Below the pieces are notes generated by a model. The model searched no databases. It was not told the DNA's origin and worked only from the letters and a program-made list of their open reading frames with translations. Of a stretch of 26,927 nt of DNA, positions 7,590 through 23,669 are shown piece by piece. Origin of the DNA: a virus. Position numbers and translations under genes: made by a program. The first letter of the stretch is position 1. Each line of letters opens with the position of its first letter. Where the stretch lies: positions 1-26,927 of the IMG/VR virus record IMGVR_UViG_3300032289_001175; one strand, written 5' to 3'.

Positions 7590-7819
7590 TGTTCAATCCG
7601 TTAGTGGGAGAATTATCCCATTTTAAAGACAACGAATTAGATGATAAAATTTTAGATCTCTCTAAAAAACTCCAGTTTGCCATACGGATTGGCAAAGTTG
7701 ATCTCTTGACACAACTGAATACATTGCTTATAATGTATAAAGAGGAACGAACGAGAAGATCTCTAACTAGAAAAACACAACTAGATGGAGACTTGGATCA
7801 ACTTATTAATGTCGATTAA
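7589..7819 (+). CDS. Small conserved phage protein, unknown function
   Basis: 76 residues, mainly predicted alpha-helical and charged ('LDDKILDLSKKLQFAIRIGK', then 'MYKEERTRRSL'), with an acidic C-terminus. It begins with 'MFNPLVGEL', an opening I recall from small proteins of T4-like cyanophages, but I cannot give a function. It shares one base with the upstream stop (TAATG), so it is translated with the structural operon although it does not look like a fibre protein. Cytosolic by lack of hydrophobic segments. Confidence 0.65.
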   Translation: MFNPLVGELSHFKDNELDDKILDLSKKLQFAIRIGKVDLLTQLNTLLIMYKEERTRRSLTRKTQLDGDLDQLINVD

Positions 7820-8288
7820 ATATAACGAAGATGTACTCAGCAAAGCAGTAATGAAACATGGTCCAGAAATTTTGGCCAAGTGTCTTGCTGACTTTACCTC
7901 TATCGAAAAATACATAAACACAGTTTATGATGAAAAATTAAATTACCCTATTCCTGCAGATAGTATCAATCAAGATAACTGGTTGATACCTAAAAAGTAT
8001 GCGGATATGGATATTGTGGATTTTGTTCTAAAGAAAACCACTACTGAAGTAGAATATCAGCGAGCAGCTTTAGAATTAGAGTTATTTAAAAAACACAACA
8101 TGATAGATGTGTTAAAAACAATGGTGTATGTTGTTGATACTCTTAGAGAAAACAACATAGTTTGGGGTGTAGGTCGAGGCTCTAGTGTAGCAAGTTATGT
8201 ACTTCACATTATTGGGGTACATAAGATAAACAGTATTAAATACAATATACCAATAGAAGAGTTCTTTAAAGGAGATCAAAATGGGTAA
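7809..8288 (+). CDS. Stand-alone DnaE (DNA polymerase III alpha)-like fragment
   Basis: 159 residues from ATG 7809, which overlaps the upstream gene by 11 bases; an in-frame ATG at 7785 would add eight residues. The C-terminal ~40 residues read G-V-G-R-G-S-S-V-A-S-Y-V-L-H-I-I-G-V, then 'INSIKYNIPIEEFF'. This matches the DnaE/PolC palm segment (G-P-G-R-G-S-x-x-G-S-L-V-x-Y-x-L-x-I-T-x-(V/L)-D-P). Residues 62-112 look like the helical part that precedes it in DnaE. The protein ends before the region where DnaE carries its catalytic D-x-D, so it should not polymerise DNA by itself. It may be a remnant, a decoy or regulator, or a reused fold (inference). The next gene's strong GGAG site lies inside its 3' end. 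Confidence 0.6.
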   Translation: MSIKYNEDVLSKAVMKHGPEILAKCLADFTSIEKYINTVYDEKLNYPIPADSINQDNWLIPKKYADMDIVDFVLKKTTTEVEYQRAALELELFKKHNMIDVLKTMVYVVDTLRENNIVWGVGRGSSVASYVLHIIGVHKINSIKYNIPIEEFFKGDQNG

Positions 8289-8505: not shown

Positions 8506-8922
8506 ATGGCTATTAATCCAATTAAAGCAAAGTCAATTCGTGCCTTAAATGATGATGTATTAGTTTCCGACATGGATATGGGCGAGATGATTACTGCTGG
8601 TGGCATTGTTATTCAAAGTGATGACGGTAAGGCTCACGGTGTTAAACCTCGTTGGGCTAAAGTCTACTGTGTAGGACCAAAACAAACTGATGTTAAAGTT
8701 GGACAATGGATTTTTATAGAGCACGGTAGGTGGACACGCAAGATGTCTATTGAAATTGACAACGAAGTCAAAGAAGTGCAAAAAGTAGAAGTAAAATCTA
8801 TTATCGCTGTGTCAGACGAACGACCTAATACAGCGTACCTTGGCGTTGAATATTCTAATGGTTCGGGTATTGATATTCGTCCAGAGGATTTCATGCCCGG
8901 AAATTTATCTAAGATTAATTAA
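8506..8922 (+). CDS. GroES-like co-chaperonin (gp31-type)
   Basis: 138 residues. The Cpn10 beta-barrel pattern is visible: 'IRALNDDVLV' (11-20) as first strand, a mobile-loop-like segment (about 23-45) containing G-G-I-V-I at 32-36 (GroES has a G-G-I-V tip that docks on GroEL), 'WAKVYCVGP' (50-58) and 'DVKVGQWIFIEHGRW' (62-76). Such proteins cap host GroEL and, like T4 gp31, may be needed to fold the major capsid protein. About 40 residues at the C-terminus extend beyond a minimal GroES. It lies three bases downstream of the preceding stop and overlaps the next start by one base. Confidence 0.75.
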   Translation: MAINPIKAKSIRALNDDVLVSDMDMGEMITAGGIVIQSDDGKAHGVKPRWAKVYCVGPKQTDVKVGQWIFIEHGRWTRKMSIEIDNEVKEVQKVEVKSIIAVSDERPNTAYLGVEYSNGSGIDIRPEDFMPGNLSKIN

Positions 8923-10681: not shown

Positions 10682-11005
10682 ATGACATTTTTAGTAACTG
10701 AAAATTGCATTAAATGCAAACACACCGATTGCGTAGAAGTTTGTCCTGTTGATTGTTTCCACGAAGGCCCAAACTTCTTAGCTATTGATCCTAATGAATG
10801 CATAGATTGCGGAGTGTGTGTTCCAGAATGTCCAGTAGATGCTATTGTTGCTGATAACGATACAAATACAAATATTGTACAGTGGTTAGAAATTAATACT
10901 AGATTAAGTTCTAATTGGCCTGTTATAACTAAGAAAAAGGCTGCGCTACCAGATGCTGATCAATGGAACGGCGTAGAGGGTAAGCTCGAACATTTAGAAG
11001 AATGA
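10682..11005 (+). CDS. fdxA: Seven-iron ferredoxin (FdxA / ferredoxin I type)
   Basis: 107 residues. From memory it aligns end to end, without gaps in the cluster region, with Azotobacter vinelandii ferredoxin I. Counting the initiator Met, cysteines fall at 9, 17 and 50 ([3Fe-4S] ligands in that family) and 21, 40, 43 and 46 ([4Fe-4S] ligands), with the extra C12 and C25 also conserved. Residues 85-107 ('[20 protein letters not shown]') preserve the C-terminal tail of the FdI group, so the gene is intact rather than a generic 2[4Fe-4S] fragment. It is a soluble low-potential electron carrier. It sits between the clamp loader and dCMP deaminase genes, which suggests electron delivery to a nucleotide-metabolism or other redox enzyme during infection (inference). 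Coupled to the next gene by ATGA. Confidence 0.92.
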
Positions 11006-13030: not shown

Positions 13031-13552
13031 ATGGCTGATCTTAAAGATATAATTTTAAATATAGAACAATTATACGGTTCTAATAATAGTTTGTCTATGC
13101 TCAAGGACTTTGAGCGAGTATTAGACGAACTTGACATATACGTGTTTGACAACTGGATTGACGGCGAAATTGTTGCTGGTCCTAAAGAATCACGATATTT
13201 TGTAGAATGCACACTTATGTGGGCGGAAGATAAAATGCCAGAGCCTCGAGGCGGACTACGTTTGCTAGATTACGGTTGCAAAGTGCAATTTGCAAAATCT
13301 GTATTAAATAAAGTTAGAAAGATTAAAAACCCTGACGATATACGTCCGGGGACACGTAAAGGCAAAATTGATCAAGAACCCATTTATCTTGCTAAAATTA
13401 TAATGCCTAAAAAATTAATGTCTGATATACAACGAGGTTACAATAATCTCGACAGCAACAAAATAGAAGATATCATCAGCCAACAAGATATTATGGGCAG
13501 TAATCCCGCTGGTTCGGAACAACAAGTTCAGGATGTGCAAAATGCAGAATAA
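13031..13552 (+). CDS. Conserved phage protein, unknown function
   Basis: 173 residues with an AGGAG site six bases ahead of the ATG. Residues 20-80 ('FERVLDELDIYVFDNWIDGE', then 'RYFVECTLMWAEDKMP') and 'GGLRLLDYGCKVQFAKS' (about 75-91) look like a compact alpha/beta domain. I recall similar proteins in marine Caudoviricetes but know no function. The C-terminal 35 residues are polar, Gln/Ser/Asn-rich and probably disordered. It leads a likely late transcription unit and overlaps the next gene by 11 bases, so the two products may interact. No membrane segment or catalytic motif seen. Confidence 0.7.
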   Translation: MADLKDIILNIEQLYGSNNSLSMLKDFERVLDELDIYVFDNWIDGEIVAGPKESRYFVECTLMWAEDKMPEPRGGLRLLDYGCKVQFAKSVLNKVRKIKNPDDIRPGTRKGKIDQEPIYLAKIIMPKKLMSDIQRGYNNLDSNKIEDIISQQDIMGSNPAGSEQQVQDVQNAE

Positions 13553-14276
13553 ATTAATAGAAGGTCTTAGACCGTTAGATCTAAAAGAAATGATACGTCC
13601 TGTATTTGAAGTAGACACATTTAGATCTAAGATGGGCGAGGATCAAGATGTATGCGTTATCAGCTTTACAGTAAAAGATAGATTTCCAGCAAAGGACTTA
13701 ATGGAATTTGTTGAAAAGGGATATAACTTTGTACTAGATGCTGATGTTTCGTCTGGCGAAAATAATGATGGTGAGTACAGCGTATTCATTGAACTTGAGC
13801 GATCATCTAAACTGTCTGAACAAATTAAAGAATTAACTTACGGTATTCGTAAGCTAACAGGTATCGATGGTTGGCAATTTAAGTATCATAAAAACAATTC
13901 AGTACACGAAGCAACCGAAGAAAATTTAAAAAATTATATTCCGTCAAGTCCTAGAATGTACGAAGAAGCAATGACTCGTATTAAAACTGAGAATGTAAGA
14001 AAATTCTTTACTAAAACCCTTATGGATGATTTAACATTAGATGGCAATGTTATTACCATTCACAAACCATACAATCAAAAAATACAACTACGTTGGCTTA
14101 ATGAAAATGATCCTCAACCCGTAATCGAGGGCGCTATGGATATAGATGAAGCCGCAACTGCTGAAATGTTCTGGTTAACTAAAGTATTAGGCGACTACAA
14201 CATAAGTAAATTTGGTGATAAATTTTTATTCACAAATGGCGGGGGCGCCATGTTATTACAAAGGATAGAACAATGA
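13542..14276 (+). CDS. Conserved phage protein, unknown function
   Basis: 244 residues from ATG 13542; an ATG at 13533 would add three residues, but the AGGA at about 13530-13533 fits 13542. Notable segments are 'FEVDTFRSKMGEDQDVCVIS' near the start, 'DLMEFVEKGYNFVLDADVS' (about 53-71), 'YSVFIELERSSKLSEQI' and 'GIRKLTGIDGWQFKYHK' in the first half. The second half has 'MYEEAMTRIKTENVRKFF' and a short beta region ending in 'FLFTNGGGAML'. This looks like a two-domain alpha/beta protein; I cannot name a family. Position 11 bases into the preceding gene and four bases overlapping the endolysin start (ATGA) ties it to the late lysis unit. A virion or packaging role is possible but not shown. Confidence 0.7.
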   Translation: MQNKLIEGLRPLDLKEMIRPVFEVDTFRSKMGEDQDVCVISFTVKDRFPAKDLMEFVEKGYNFVLDADVSSGENNDGEYSVFIELERSSKLSEQIKELTYGIRKLTGIDGWQFKYHKNNSVHEATEENLKNYIPSSPRMYEEAMTRIKTENVRKFFTKTLMDDLTLDGNVITIHKPYNQKIQLRWLNENDPQPVIEGAMDIDEAATAEMFWLTKVLGDYNISKFGDKFLFTNGGGAMLLQRIEQ

Positions 14277-14893
14277 ACTTTAGTTTCACGTTAGAAGATC
14301 TTAAATCGATCATCGGAAAAAATCAATATGCAGATCATTGGTATGATGCAATTTGTAAGATATGTCCCGATTATCAAATTGATACTCCGCAACGTCTAGC
14401 AGCATTCCTAGCACAATGCGCACACGAATCCGGTGGGTTTGTTTTCTTAAAAGAAAACTTAAACTACAAAGCAGCAAGTTTACGCAAAGTTTTTCCTAAG
14501 TATTTTCCAGATGATGCTATCGCAGCGGCATATGCTAACAAAGGCGAAATGATTGCTAATCGCGTATACGGAAATCGTATGGGTAATGGTGATGAAGCAA
14601 GCGGAGATGGGTTTCGCTATTGTGGTCGTGGCTTAATTCAGTTAACTGGTAAAAATAATTATGAGTCTTTTGCTGACAGTATTGAAACTCCAGTTGAGGA
14701 AATTCCAGAATACCTAGCAACATTTGAAGGTGCGGTTCAATCAGCTTGTTGGTTCTGGGAAACAAATAACTTAAATCAGTGGGCGGACAAGGGCGACATC
14801 CTCACACTAACCAAACGTATCAACGGTGGTACTATTGGTCTTGAAGATCGTAAAAAACATTACGAACACGCTCTGCATGTACTAGGCGTTTAA
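14273..14893 (+). CDS. GH19 chitinase-like endolysin
   Basis: 206 residues forming a single glycoside hydrolase family 19 domain. 'AAFLAQCAHESGGF' (43-56) holds the catalytic glutamate E52 in the H-E pair; a second acidic residue is E61 in 'ENLNY'. 'ANRVYGNRMGNGDEASGDGF' (95-114) and 'YCGRGLIQLTG' (116-126) are family hallmarks. In Gram-negative phages this family acts as peptidoglycan-cleaving endolysin rather than a true chitinase. There is no signal peptide or membrane anchor, so release needs a holin; spanin and holin-like genes follow directly. ATGA overlap with the upstream gene. A second, divergent GH19 domain occurs at the C-terminus of the 24894-26318 product. Confidence 0.9.
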   Translation: MNFSFTLEDLKSIIGKNQYADHWYDAICKICPDYQIDTPQRLAAFLAQCAHESGGFVFLKENLNYKAASLRKVFPKYFPDDAIAAAYANKGEMIANRVYGNRMGNGDEASGDGFRYCGRGLIQLTGKNNYESFADSIETPVEEIPEYLATFEGAVQSACWFWETNNLNQWADKGDILTLTKRINGGTIGLEDRKKHYEHALHVLGV

Positions 14894-14894
14894 T

Positions 14895-15515
14895 ATGTGG
14901 CAACTTGGATGGGTCTTAAGTCTCATTCCAGATAGTTTGTTTATTTGGATCTATTATACCATGCTAACGCTAGGTGTAGGCCTCTACATTGCTAGCAAGC
15001 TGATAAAATGGATCCCATTAATGGGGCAGTATAAACTTCCAGCAGAATTAATTGGAGTTGTATTACTAGTAGTTGGTTCTTATTTTTACGGAGGGTACGG
15101 GGTTCAGTCTGCGTGGCTAGCCCGTGTAGCAGAATTAGAAGCAAAAGTAAAAGCCGCAGAAGAAAAAAGTCAGCAGGTTAACACAGTTATAGAAACTAAA
15201 GTAGTCACTAAGATAAAGGTAGTAAAGGAAAACGTTTATGTTAACAGAGAAATTATCAAAGAAGTTGCGGGCAAACAACTTGATGCTAGCTGTAGCTTGC
15301 CTAAGTCTACTGTCAGCTTGCACGACAGCGCCAGTCGTAATGAAGTTCCCGAGCGTGCCGCCGCAACTGATGGAACCCCCAGCGAAGTTAAAGCCAGTCA
15401 GCTCCTCGACAGAGTCGTTGAAAACTACGGCTCCTGTCACGAAAACGCAGCCAAACTAGAAGCATGGCAAGAGTGGTACAAGGAACAGAAAAAAATCTTC
15501 GAAAGCGTTAAATAA
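14895..15515 (+). CDS. Rz: Inner-membrane spanin (Rz-like) with two predicted membrane segments
   Basis: 206 residues starting one base after the endolysin stop. Two hydrophobic segments (about 14-36 and 51-70) precede an Ala/Lys/Glu/Val-rich coiled-coil region (about 76-125, 'RVAELEAKVKAAEEKSQQV') and a C-terminal helical tail with Trp/Tyr ('KLEAWQEWYKEQKKIFES'). The layout membrane-coiled coil-periplasmic tail, and an out-of-frame lipoprotein gene inside it (15238-15459), identify an i-spanin that links inner and outer membranes for final lysis. Classical Rz has one membrane segment, so the extra one is unusual and may give holin-like or altered topology. Two Cys (133 and 181) could form disulphide-linked dimers, as known for some i-spanins. 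Confidence 0.8.
   Translation: MWQLGWVLSLIPDSLFIWIYYTMLTLGVGLYIASKLIKWIPLMGQYKLPAELIGVVLLVVGSYFYGGYGVQSAWLARVAELEAKVKAAEEKSQQVNTVIETKVVTKIKVVKENVYVNREIIKEVAGKQLDASCSLPKSTVSLHDSASRNEVPERAAATDGTPSEVKASQLLDRVVENYGSCHENAAKLEAWQEWYKEQKKIFESVK
15238..15459 (+). CDS. Rz1: Outer-membrane spanin lipoprotein (Rz1-like), fully embedded in Rz
   Basis: 73 residues read in the +1 frame inside the Rz-like gene. A basic N-terminus (residues 1-14) and hydrophobic core lead to the lipobox L-S-A-C with lipidation predicted at C28 ('CLSLLSACTTAP'). The mature ~46 residues are Pro/Ser/Thr/Lys-rich, as usual for o-spanins, and would sit on the inner face of the outer membrane and bind the i-spanin. An AAGGA site about seven bases before the ATG supports real translation. 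The fully nested arrangement is the lambda Rz/Rz1 architecture. Confidence 0.85.
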   Translation: MLTEKLSKKLRANNLMLAVACLSLLSACTTAPVVMKFPSVPPQLMEPPAKLKPVSSSTESLKTTAPVTKTQPN

Positions 15516-16452: not shown

Positions 16453-16485
16453 AATAGGGCTGTAGTAATACAGTCCTATTTTTTT
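16453..16485 (+). terminator. Intrinsic (Rho-independent) terminator after the lysis unit
   Basis: Stem arms AATAGGGCTGTA (16453-16464) and TACAGTCCTATT (16469-16480) pair over 12 positions, one being G-U, around a 4-base loop GTAA, followed by a run of T through 16485. It lies 27 bases after the exported-protein stop and ahead of the J-domain gene, closing the 13031-16426 unit. Confidence 0.9.
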
Positions 16486-16505
16486 CACAAACGGTAATTG
16501 ACAAA

Positions 16506-17336
16506 ATGGATTATTATTCAACACTAGGAGTTAAACGAGGGGCTTCCTCCGATGAAATCAAAAAAGCCTATCGTAGCATGGCAATGAAACATCATCCTGA
16601 TCGAGGTGGGGATGAGAAAAAATTTAAAGAAATATCACAGGCATACGATGTGCTTAGTGATCCTCAGAAAAAACAAATGTTTGATTCTGGCATGGATCCT
16701 GCCAATCCTCAACAACACGGATTTAGAGGCGGCAACCCGTTTGAGTTTCATTTTGGTTCAGGCGATATTAACGATATGTTTGGCCAGTTTGGGTTTGGTC
16801 AACGACCACAAAGAAGAAATTCTTCAATTAACGTAGTTGTAGATTTGTCACTAGAAGAAGTACTATCTGGTAAAGATGTTACTGCAGAAGTTGGTATGCC
16901 CAACGGACATAATAAAGTAATTAATATTTCTATTCCAGCTGGAATAGAACACGGTCAACAGATACGATATCAGGGAATGGGCGGATCAGAAATTCCCGGG
17001 ATACGTGCAGGAGATTTAATTGTTAATATTAATATTAAACGTCATCCTAAATTTCAAAGAGATGGCACTACTTTAATTTACGAACACAAAATATCTGTAT
17101 GGGAAGCTATACTAGGAGGCAGTGCTAACATTGAAACATTAGATGGTAGAACCCTGAGCATTGGTATTCCTAAAGGGTCTCAGCCCGATACTGTTTTAAG
17201 TTGCAGAGGAGAAGGTATTCCCGATATGCGTAGTCATGTCAAAGGAAATCTTTTGATAAAACTTAAAGTAGAAATTCCAAAAAATCTAACAATTCCTCAA
17301 TTAGAAAAAATTGAGAAAGTAAAAAATGAACTTTAA
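16506..17336 (+). CDS. dnaJ: J-domain co-chaperone (CbpA/DnaJ type, no zinc finger)
   Basis: 276 residues. J domain (about 1-62) with the H-P-D tripeptide at 30-32 that stimulates Hsp70 ATPase and 'FKEISQAYDVLSDPQKK' (40-56). A Gly/Phe-rich linker (61-98, 'FEFHFGSGDINDMFGQFGFG') leads to two beta-rich substrate-binding domains (about 105-265; 'ISIPAGIEHGQQIRYQGMG', 'GDLIVNINIKRHPKFQRDG'). There is only one Cys, so the DnaJ zinc-binding domain is absent; the layout is that of CbpA-type class B J-proteins. It should recruit host DnaK to phage or host clients. No DnaK gene is seen here. It is followed by a ClpA-like gene, suggesting a proteostasis module. The start follows the 16453-16485 terminator; its own promoter was not identified. 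Confidence 0.9.
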   Translation: MDYYSTLGVKRGASSDEIKKAYRSMAMKHHPDRGGDEKKFKEISQAYDVLSDPQKKQMFDSGMDPANPQQHGFRGGNPFEFHFGSGDINDMFGQFGFGQRPQRRNSSINVVVDLSLEEVLSGKDVTAEVGMPNGHNKVINISIPAGIEHGQQIRYQGMGGSEIPGIRAGDLIVNINIKRHPKFQRDGTTLIYEHKISVWEAILGGSANIETLDGRTLSIGIPKGSQPDTVLSCRGEGIPDMRSHVKGNLLIKLKVEIPKNLTIPQLEKIEKVKNEL

Positions 17337-17358
17337 TCACCTAACCGGTATTTGTTTG

Positions 17359-17388
17359 TTGACATTGTCAGTCACATGAAGTTACAAT
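17359..17388 (+). promoter_or_regulatory. Sigma70-like promoter for the ClpA-like gene
   Basis: TTGACA (17359-17364), an 18-base spacer and TACAAT (17383-17388) match the housekeeping -35 and -10 consensus with one mismatch. A transcript would start near 17395, about 27 bases before the ATG at 17422. This suggests early or host-RNA-polymerase transcription of the ClpA-like gene, separate from the J-domain gene upstream. Confidence 0.7.
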
Positions 17389-17421
17389 TAGTTATGAAGA
17401 ATCTTAGGAAACAAAAATAAT

Positions 17422-19731
17422 ATGATAGAACCTAGTAATAAACTACAAGAAGTATTTGAGTCATCAGTTGAAATTGCTCGAAAACTAAATCACGAATATG
17501 TAACTCTCGAACACCTGCTACTGGCTGTTATGCAAGATGCAGAATGCTATAAGTTAATCGAACAGTTCGGTGCAGATGCTAACTTCATCAAAACTAATCT
17601 AAATCATTATATTCAGAATAATCTTAGTGAGATATCAAATCCATCTATAGAAAAGCCTAGAAAAACACATTCTGTTGAACGTGTTTTAAATAGATGTTTT
17701 ACACAGGTATTATTCAGTGGGCGACAAAGAATTGAAATCCAAGATGTTATTATTGGCATTTTAAGTGAGAAGAATTCATTTGCTCATTACTTTCTCAACA
17801 AAGGTGGGCTAACTAAAGAAAAATTTGTAAAATATTTCCACGATTCGATCGTTGAAATTGAAGACGGTGAAGAAGAAACAAGGACCCCCTCTGTGCCACA
17901 AATGGATAAAATTATCAATGCATTTTGTACCAACCTTAGTTTAGCTGCAAAGCAAAGAAAAATAGATCCTGTTATTGGTCGTGATGAAGAAATTGAAAAG
18001 ATTCAATTAGTACTTGCTCGTAGAAATAAAGCCAACGTGTTAATGGTCGGTGATCCAGGTGTAGGTAAAACTGCTATTGCTGAAGGACTAGCACGTAAGA
18101 TTCACGAAAAGAAAGTTCCTAAGTTTATTCAAGACCACCAAGTCTATACATTAGACATTAGTGCGCTTCTAGCTGGCAGTAAGTATCGTGGCGATTTTGA
18201 AGAACGAATTAAGGCAGTATTAATGGCGTTGGAAAAGAAAGGTAAAATTATTCTTTTCATTGACGAAGCTCATATGATGAGCGGTGCTGGTGCAGCAAGT
18301 CAAGGATCAAATGATCTTGCAAATATTCTTAAGCCAATATTAACTAAAGGCGTAATTAAACTCATTGCATCAACTACATGGGAAGAATATCGCAAGTACT
18401 TTGAAAAGGATCGTGCCTTAATGCGTCGATTTCAACGTGTTACTATCGACGAACCTACACAAGAGCTCACTGTTAAAATTATTAAAGGCCTTAAAAAATA
18501 TTACGAGCAACATCATAATGTTCGTATTACAAACGATGCAATTGATCAAGCTGTTAAATTATCTATTAAGTACATGGCTGACAAAAAACTTCCTGACAAA
18601 GCTATTGATATTATAGACTGCGCTTCAGCAAGATTTAAATTAAAAGATGATGCAAACGACGGTACTGAGAATGTTGTCGACATCGAGCAGGTTGTATACG
18701 AGTTAAGCAAAATGATCAACATGCCATTGGAAAATGTTGCACAAAAAGAAAGTAAGAATCTTATTGAATTAGAATCATCAATGAAGAAAGCTGTGTTTGG
18801 TCAAGATGTTGCTGTAGATAATTTGCTTGACAAGATTTTTGTTGCTCAGGCGGGAATGAAAGCACCTAATAAACCTATTGGTAGTTTCTTACTACTTGGC
18901 CCAACAGGCTGCGGCAAAACCGAGACTGCTAAACAACTCAGCGATAAAATGTCGATGCCGTTGATACGATTTGATATGAGCGAGTATCAAGAAAAACACA
19001 GTGTTGCACGTTTGATTGGGGCTCCTCCGGGTTATGTAGGATTTGATGACGATGCTGGTCAATTAATTACTAAGTTACAAGAAAGTCCTAACTGCATTCT
19101 GCTACTTGATGAAATTGAAAAAGCTCATCCAGATGTTTCAAATATTCTATTGCAGTTTATGGATAATGGATTCATTACAGGTTCGAATGGCAAGCAAGCC
19201 GATGGGCGTAATTGTATATTGATTATGACCAGTAACTTGGGTGCTAGAGATAATGAAAGCAATACTATTGGTTTTGGCGAGCTTGGAAAAGAGGGAGAAG
19301 ATGATAAAGCAGTTAAAAAGTTTTTTGCCCCAGAGTTTCGTAATCGCTTAGACGCAATTGTTAAGTTTAATAGTCTCGCTATTGAAACAGTTTATCAAAT
19401 TGTCAAGAAATTTATCAGTGATCTAAATGATCAACTTAAAGATAAGAACATTATTTTAAGCCCGACTTTAGAAACTGTTAAATGGTTAGCAGAAAAAGGC
19501 TATGATAAGAAGATGGGCGCACGACCAATTTCTAGACTAATTGATCTAGAAGTTAAGTCGCCGCTAAGTCGAAAGGTGTTATTCGGAGAATTACAGTCTG
19601 GCGGAAACGTAGAGATCGTAGTCAATGAAGGTAAATTAGACTTTATTATTACTCCTATACTGACTAAAGAACAGAAAAAAGCTATAAAGCGTGGTGAGCT
19701 TGTTTCGGAAATTACAGACTTAGATGCTTAA
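17422..19731 (+). CDS. clpA: ClpA-type AAA+ unfoldase
   Basis: 769 residues, similar to E. coli ClpA (758), without the long coiled-coil middle domain of ClpB. The N-domain (1-145) has the two-fold Clp_N pattern. D1: Walker A G-D-P-G-V-G-K-T (210-217), pore loop 'KYRGDFEER' (254-262), Walker B 'ILFIDEAH' (277-284), arginine 'RRFQRV' (335-340). D2: Walker A G-P-T-G-C-G-K-T (493-500), pore motif G-Y-V-G (537-540), Walker B 'CILLLDEIE' (558-566), sensor 2 G-A-R (699-701). Residues 616-618 are I-G-F at the position of ClpA's I-G-L loop that docks on ClpP. It therefore likely feeds substrates to host ClpP, redirecting degradation (inference). A sigma70-like promoter lies just upstream; the 3' end overlaps the next gene by eight bases. 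Confidence 0.92.
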   Translation: MIEPSNKLQEVFESSVEIARKLNHEYVTLEHLLLAVMQDAECYKLIEQFGADANFIKTNLNHYIQNNLSEISNPSIEKPRKTHSVERVLNRCFTQVLFSGRQRIEIQDVIIGILSEKNSFAHYFLNKGGLTKEKFVKYFHDSIVEIEDGEEETRTPSVPQMDKIINAFCTNLSLAAKQRKIDPVIGRDEEIEKIQLVLARRNKANVLMVGDPGVGKTAIAEGLARKIHEKKVPKFIQDHQVYTLDISALLAGSKYRGDFEERIKAVLMALEKKGKIILFIDEAHMMSGAGAASQGSNDLANILKPILTKGVIKLIASTTWEEYRKYFEKDRALMRRFQRVTIDEPTQELTVKIIKGLKKYYEQHHNVRITNDAIDQAVKLSIKYMADKKLPDKAIDIIDCASARFKLKDDANDGTENVVDIEQVVYELSKMINMPLENVAQKESKNLIELESSMKKAVFGQDVAVDNLLDKIFVAQAGMKAPNKPIGSFLLLGPTGCGKTETAKQLSDKMSMPLIRFDMSEYQEKHSVARLIGAPPGYVGFDDDAGQLITKLQESPNCILLLDEIEKAHPDVSNILLQFMDNGFITGSNGKQADGRNCILIMTSNLGARDNESNTIGFGELGKEGEDDKAVKKFFAPEFRNRLDAIVKFNSLAIETVYQIVKKFISDLNDQLKDKNIILSPTLETVKWLAEKGYDKKMGARPISRLIDLEVKSPLSRKVLFGELQSGGNVEIVVNEGKLDFIITPILTKEQKKAIKRGELVSEITDLDA

Positions 19732-23342: not shown

Positions 23343-23669
23343 ATGGTTGAAATAACACAATCAGCAAAATCAAAGATTATGGATTTGCTGTTAGAAGAAA
23401 ATAATCCAAAACTGGCGTTGCGTACCTTTGTACAAGGTGGCGGTTGCAGTGGTTTTAGCTATGGCTTTACCTTTGACGAGGAAAAGAACGAAGATGACTT
23501 TGAATTTCCTATCAACGAACAGTATAATGTATTCGTTGATGCAATGAGCATGCAGTACCTACAAGGTGCTGTTATTGATTACAAAGAAGATGTAATGGGC
23601 AGTCAATTTGTTATTACTAATCCTAATGCACAATCAACTTGCGGATGTGGGAGTAGTTTTTCAGTATGA
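23343..23669 (+). CDS. erpA: A-type iron-sulfur cluster carrier (ErpA/IscA family)
   Basis: 108 residues. All three cluster ligands are present: C35 in '[11 protein letters not shown]' and C100, C102 in '[11 protein letters not shown]'. The overall sequence follows E. coli ErpA more closely than IscA ('[20 protein letters not shown]' and '[15 protein letters not shown]'). ErpA accepts Fe-S clusters from the IscU scaffold and passes them to apo-proteins. In a phage it could mature the phage ferredoxin at 10682 or keep host Fe-S enzymes active. AGGA lies seven bases before the ATG. Its N-terminus lacks the tag of its neighbours, so it is probably made and used in the infected cell. The stop overlaps a small reading frame (ATGA). 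Confidence 0.93.

Follow-up and report, generated by a model that had tools for sequence, protein, structure and literature searches.

A J-protein gene and a ClpA-type unfoldase gene as the probable core of a protein quality-control cassette in a phage genome fragment

Described systems and the present locus

Very large phages are already known to carry genes for a J-protein and a ClpA-type unfoldase, and such gene sets are conserved among them. In jumbo phages, Iyer et al. described genes for ClpP, ClpS, ClpA and DNAJ, and they proposed that the phage ClpS and DNAJ recruit the ClpAP and HSP70 of the host, and jumbo-phage ClpA has also been suggested to act as a translocase or assembly aid (PMC7824862). 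DnaK and DnaJ have been reported in moraphages (PMC12619734), and deformylase and DnaJ genes with consecutive numbers, gp154 and gp155, in a Sinorhizobium phage related to Atu_ph07 (PMC11242549). The J-protein Rki of phage RB43 was shown to bind host DnaK (Perrody 2012) and showed no generic co-chaperone function (PMC3486835).

The locus considered here lies in a stretch of 26,927 bases (the window), which is an entire IMG/VR record but no more than a small fraction of a phage genome of this kind. By description, its J-protein shares with Rki the phage J domain, but is a class B protein with a DnaJ_C domain and adjoins an unfoldase. In Agrobacterium phage Atu_ph07, for which ClpA, DnaJ, ClpP, ClpS, ClpB and ClpX were reported in 2018 (PMC6102473), the J-protein gene (gp293) directly precedes that of a ClpA (gp292) with an IGF loop, as in the window, and ClpP and ClpS are gp676 and gp708; unlike the window with its deformylase remnant, the annotated cluster is without a deformylase, and ClpB and ClpX are encoded in addition. 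The cultured Sinorhizobium phage Phosso (PV764938.1) likewise has a J-protein gene followed by a Clp gene with an IGF loop, in the order J-protein, deformylase, Clp, and has ClpP and ClpS elsewhere in its genome, but its deformylase is intact and its Clp is distant in the tree from the clade of the window. EST35_0297 and EST35_0298 of Pseudomonas phage PA5oct stand, as do their counterparts in the window, in the order minus-strand PhoH, two genes, J-protein, ClpA, with the same IGF loop, and PA5oct has its own ClpP and ClpS. Unlike in the window, however, there is no deformylase between the PA5oct J-protein and ClpA genes, the window J-protein has no tblastn match to that of PA5oct, and in the window lysis genes separate the structural genes from the J-protein gene. 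No paper naming the J-protein, deformylase and ClpA cassette or an embedded promoter was found in the open-access literature, and it is this conserved architecture, together with a promoter-like element embedded in the deformylase gene, that is modestly new.

Layout of the window

The features on which the analysis rests are as follows.

8506..8922, + strand: GroES-like (Gp31-type) co-chaperonin candidate (phrog_931, 8e-16; phrog_3188, 5e-5)
16453..16489, + strand: intrinsic-terminator-like hairpin and T-run (12-pair stem, 4-base loop, T tail; a pattern match only)
16506..17336, + strand: class B J-protein gene, 276 aa (Pfam, alignment, model, Foldseek, dN/dS)
16593..16601, + strand: codons for H-P-D in the J domain, residues 30-32 (no variation among the 28 sequences aligned)
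17327..17421, + strand: peptide deformylase gene remnant (DNA alignment with the relative L001; tblastn E 4e-7)
17359..17388, + strand: promoter-like TTGACA-N18-TACAAT inside the deformylase remnant, beginning 63 bp 5' of the clp start
17422..19731, + strand: ClpA-type two-ring AAA+ unfoldase gene (clp), 769 aa (domains, tree, alignment, dN/dS)
18049..18072, + strand: ring 1 Walker A, GDPGVGKT, residues 210-217 (conserved in 81/81)
18898..18921, + strand: ring 2 Walker A, GPTGCGKT, residues 493-500 (conserved in 81/81)
19267..19275, + strand: IGF tripeptide of the predicted ClpP-docking loop, residues 616-618 (aligns with IGL of E. coli ClpA)

The terminator-like hairpin immediately 5' of the J-protein gene is strong and sets the J-protein unit apart from the preceding genes; a T4-type late promoter, TATAAATA, was looked for upstream of the J-protein gene and was not found there. 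At the other end, the gene downstream of clp begins at 19724, within clp, giving an 8-base overlap at the clp stop. The surroundings are structural and lysis genes, with a phrog_13138 virion structural protein at 13533 and a GH19 endolysin at 14273. Directly 3' of the endolysin gene (14273-14893), an ORF at 14895-15515 with a second ORF nested at 15238-15459 resembles an inner-membrane spanin with its nested lipoprotein, the Rz/Rz1 arrangement. The GroES-like candidate has no Pfam match, and of the two PHROGs families to which it does match, phrog_931 is annotated as head morphogenesis and phrog_3188 as GroES. Elsewhere the window encodes an iron-sulphur assembly (HesB-type) protein (23343-23669), a bacterial-type ferredoxin (10682-11005) and a short ORF of 167 aa (7785-8288) that matches part of the DNA polymerase III alpha NTPase domain (PF07733).

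The J-protein

The J-protein matches the Pfam families DnaJ (1e-23) and DnaJ_C (2e-39) and is made up of a J domain, a G/F-rich linker at approximately residues 66-100 and a DnaJ_C region at 109-258. As the sequence-only reading had stated, the H-P-D motif is kept, by the ORF at 16506-17336; the three residues, H30-P31-D32, are invariant in all 28 sequences aligned. There are no CxxCxGxG zinc-finger repeats in the sequence, and the score of 231 falls below the cut-off of 377 for the NCBIfam DnaJ family of the zinc-finger type; by these sequence features it is a class B (zinc-finger-less) J-protein. The structural model has confident J-domain helices and a beta-rich C-terminal region joined by a low-confidence linker, and Foldseek with this model returns DnaJ proteins, including T. 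thermophilus DnaJ (4j80, E 2e-23). A dN/dS of 0.043 between the window and L001 documents strong purifying selection. Judged from its sequence, such a protein could in principle recruit DnaK.

The ClpA-type unfoldase

The clp product has the Pfam domains Clp_N, AAA, AAA_lid_9, AAA_2 and ClpB_D2-small and matches phrog_4871, 'ATP-dependent protease', at 4e-249. It was aligned with 80 relatives (L001-L080), and in all 81 sequences of this clade the Walker A and B motifs of both rings, both pore loops and the Arg fingers are conserved. The docking tripeptide is [IV]GF throughout, as IGF in 62 and VGF in 19 members. The earlier observation that both ATPase sites and an I-G-F are retained is therefore borne out, with intact Walker motifs, IGF at 616-618 and conservation far beyond chance. 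The contrast it drew with the I-G-L of ClpA carries little weight: the tripeptide is real, but bacterial ClpAs commonly carry IGF (39 of 75 loci, alongside 18 VGF, 13 LGF, 4 MGF and 1 IGY), so that I-G-F is an ordinary ClpA loop and not a phage peculiarity. In the AlphaFold model the loop at 615-623, located between two helices, has a pLDDT below 50, which would fit a flexible docking loop.

Several lines of evidence place the protein among the ClpAs. Like E. coli ClpA, to which it is ~45% identical, it has two AAA+ rings, a Clp_N domain, an IGx loop and no middle domain, and it retains the positions matching E23 and E28 of that protein. The stretch from the Arg finger of ring 1 to Walker A of ring 2 measures 163 aa, as compared with 157-163 in ClpA, 218 in ClpC, 210 in ClpE, 267 in ClpV and 279-284 in ClpB references, and by this distance a ClpB/ClpC-type middle domain is absent. 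Maximum-likelihood phylogeny against ClpA, B, C, E and V references puts it within the ClpA clade (100/100), inside a phage branch (100/99) that includes the Phosso, Atu_ph07, PA5oct, RaK2 and GAP32 proteins, with long-branch warnings for PA5oct and RaK2/GAP32. Among PDB entries, the family profile scores highest against E. coli ClpA, at 1064 bits, with ClpC and ClpB below 800, and ClpAP and ClpC-ClpP entries are among the top Foldseek matches. A ClpB-like disaggregase was ruled out by the lack of the middle domain, the tree position and the presence of IGx, E. coli ClpB having no such loop at the aligned position. As the score against the NCBIfam ClpA equivalog TIGR02639, 893 bits, does not reach the cut-off of 993, the protein is assigned to a phage branch of ClpA and not counted as an ortholog of cellular ClpA. 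For both proteins homology and motif integrity are established, as are the ClpA clade of the unfoldase and purifying selection, with a dN/dS for clp of 0.029 (window versus L001).

Within the phage branch, the unfoldases of RaK2 and GAP32 (L180 and L179) carry IGV and LGM, respectively, in place of IGF, and there is no adjoining J-protein gene. Docking to ClpP may consequently not be universal in this branch and, to judge from these residues, could differ or have been lost in RaK2 and GAP32.

A deformylase gene between the J-protein and Clp genes

A J-protein gene lies shortly before clp in all 73 loci that have both genes, and in 60 of the 73 relatives an ORF of 161-179 aa is located between them. 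In L001 this ORF (1349-1843), which overlaps the J-protein stop by 11 bases, encodes a peptide deformylase (PF01327, E 3e-40), and all three deformylase motifs are kept in 58 of the 60 intervening ORFs. The window, in which the gene had gone unnoticed, retains only the first codons and the 3' end, with ~0.4 kb lost internally and the frame broken downstream; it is a deletion remnant, and the intact cassette is not present in the window. There is also no deformylase between the two genes in 13 other relatives, and at least two relatives, L023 and L028, contain decayed deformylase stretches, so that the loss is recurrent.

The order J-protein, deformylase, Clp extends beyond the clade, to the isolate Phosso and to the phage-like contigs L094 and L095, which are binned with bacterial MAGs; the isolates Atu_ph07 and PA5oct share the order J-protein before Clp. 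Phage-type Clp sequences (51-62% identical) are also found in genomes labelled Neomarinimicrobiota, Pacearchaeota, Rickettsiales, Pelagibacter and Halobacteroidaceae (L092-L096), with an adjoining J-protein gene in L092-L095, and these are probably phage contigs binned into MAGs. In contrast to the phage genes, whose neighbours are J-protein and deformylase genes, cellular clpA has clpS as its neighbour: ClpS is encoded within 4 kb in 75 of 75 bacterial ClpA loci and a deformylase in none. Both the synteny and the decay of the deformylase are established.

A promoter-like element upstream of clp

TTGACA-N18-TACAAT persists in the deformylase remnant, starting 63 bp 5' of the clp start, and in most close relatives the element, with the same N18 spacing, sits within the 3' codons of an intact deformylase gene. 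It occurs with at least 11/12 matches in 30 of the 60 loci with an intact deformylase, as compared with 0.68 expected from synonymous codon shuffles, counts that are not independent since the loci are related. L023 and L028, with their decayed deformylase genes, have the element too; at the more distant loci L055-L080 it does not occur. As promoter-like matches in the whole window are no commoner than in shuffled sequence (27 versus 37), the case for a promoter rests on this conservation, which is established, and not on the match.

A count of the consensus TTGACA-N17/18-TANAAT in all 81 sequences gives 110 sites on the + strand, which is also the coding strand of nearly all their genes, and none on the opposite strand; most of the sites fall a short distance 5' of a gene. 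From this distribution the phages of the clade seem to rely on sigma70-type promoters, and the likeliest reading of the element is a dedicated clp promoter that was retained through the loss of the deformylase.

Partner genes in relatives

Neither partner of the two proteins is encoded in what is available of this phage, as the sequence-only reading had recognised: ClpP is absent from the 26,927-base window and there is no HSP70 among its annotated ORFs. The further step, that both proteins must plug into host machines, does not follow. With a 27-kb fragment, an argument for host partners from missing ClpP and DnaK genes is weak, and relatives do encode ClpP, ClpS and, once, DnaK. Most relatives are short fragments, and the counts of partner genes refer to fifteen long ones.

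ClpP is encoded in 5 of the 15, with E-values from 1e-63 to 3e-84, in a shorter relative (G032) and in the isolates Phosso, Atu_ph07 and PA5oct. In all five long relatives, Ser, His and Asp align with those of E. coli ClpP, an intact catalytic triad, and both strong copies scanned pass the NCBIfam ClpP subfamily cut-off; two weaker copies, one in G010 and an additional one in G001, belong to another type and were left out of the count. These genes carry the PHROGs label 'head maturation protease', yet with the triad intact in five a prohead protease was rejected as their identity. No ClpP was found in 9 of the 15, including four of 188-270 kb that have no end overlap. ClpS is encoded in 4 of the 15, with the NDD, H66, E79 and K84 positions conserved, and the existence of ClpP and ClpS in phage relatives is established.

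A full-length DnaK gene is present in one long relative, G001, and GroEL in none of the fifteen; GrpE is absent from the two longest. In the 364-kb contig of G001, DnaK, an IbpA-like Hsp20 and ClpS are encoded side by side (284500-296500, locus L081). The ends of this contig share diverged repeats (76-96% identity) and not an exact overlap, and completeness on the grounds of end similarity was rejected. The 322-kb relative G002, in contrast, has an exact terminal repeat of 99 bases and is, for that reason, probably complete; it encodes the J-protein, deformylase, ClpA, ClpP and ClpS, and neither DnaK nor GroEL. Given GroEL in 0/15, DnaK in 1/15 and G002 without both, the default partners are those of the host, and on this gene content host DnaK would be the likeliest partner of the J-protein and host GroEL that of the GroES-like protein. 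To this extent the earlier proposal that the phage addresses host chaperone systems remains likely; for the protease it may not hold, as the ClpP could be the phage's own, and whether the Clp of the window is served by a phage-made ClpP or by that of the host appears evenly balanced.

Proposed function and alternatives

Overall, gene content and motifs are probably best explained by the J-protein and Clp forming the core of a phage quality-control cassette, with a ClpA branch that feeds ClpP. The cassette would belong to the late region of a large phage of the T4-like kind. In it, Clp (769 aa) would presumably form a two-ring hexamer that unfolds misfolded or tagged proteins by threading and, docked through its I-G-F loops, passes them to a ClpP barrel. 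The J-protein would deliver non-native clients to DnaK, presumably with stimulation of the latter. Where the deformylase is present, the usual arrangement, nascent-chain processing, DnaK recruitment and unfolding or degradation would be encoded together; the phage of the window would have lost the deformylase and kept the J-protein, clp and the putative promoter of clp.

It is possible, though we hold it only tentatively, that phage ClpA and J-protein work solely with host ClpP and host DnaK, redirecting their clients. Besides the missing genes in the window, the nine long relatives without ClpP, four of them at 188-270 kb, and the single DnaK in fifteen are consistent with such a dependence, as are the recruitment proposed by Iyer et al. 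(PMC7824862) and the binding of host DnaK by Rki (PMC3486835). It sits poorly with a true-type ClpP in 5/15 and ClpS in 4/15 long relatives, with the presence of both in G002, the only relative with an exact terminal repeat, and with the small part of such a genome that the window represents.

An unfoldase that remodels structural proteins in virion assembly, protease-free and with the J-protein and GroES-like protein as assembly chaperones, is unlikely. The position of the cassette amid structural and lysis genes, the non-canonical IGx of the RaK2-type relatives and the suggested translocase or assembly role of jumbo-phage ClpA (PMC7824862) would agree with it, but such a role would not need the docking loop, which is [IV]GF in 81/81 clade members, and ClpS and ClpP co-occur with Clp in relatives. 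That these are decaying or neutral passenger genes, as the broken deformylase next to them and its absence there in 13 relatives might suggest, is highly improbable given dN/dS values of 0.03 (Clp) and 0.04 (J-protein), catalytic motifs that are all intact and synteny kept across the clade.

Implications

The quality-control reading has a stronger form, which we regard as rather doubtful: that a module of J-protein, deformylase, ClpA, ClpP and ClpS, complete in itself, is encoded across a widespread clade of large aquatic phages, with a phage protease in place of that of the host and the clp promoter hidden in the deformylase gene. Such a module would combine N-terminal quality control with degradation, ClpS being the N-degron adaptor. 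A link of the deformylase to ClpAPS through fMet and N-degrons is an idea only, taken by analogy from work that is not about phages (PMC4745127).

If the phage ClpA uses phage ClpP and ClpS, the result would be regulated degradation run by the phage, which would select the proteins removed in the infected cell; if it uses host ClpP, it would compete with host ClpA, ClpC or ClpX. These two readings are cleanly separable, and isolates with a J-protein gene beside that of ClpA, together with ClpP and ClpS, exist in Phosso, PA5oct and Atu_ph07. That the genes for J-protein, deformylase and ClpA are kept together hints that nascent-chain processing and triage may be coupled in these phages.
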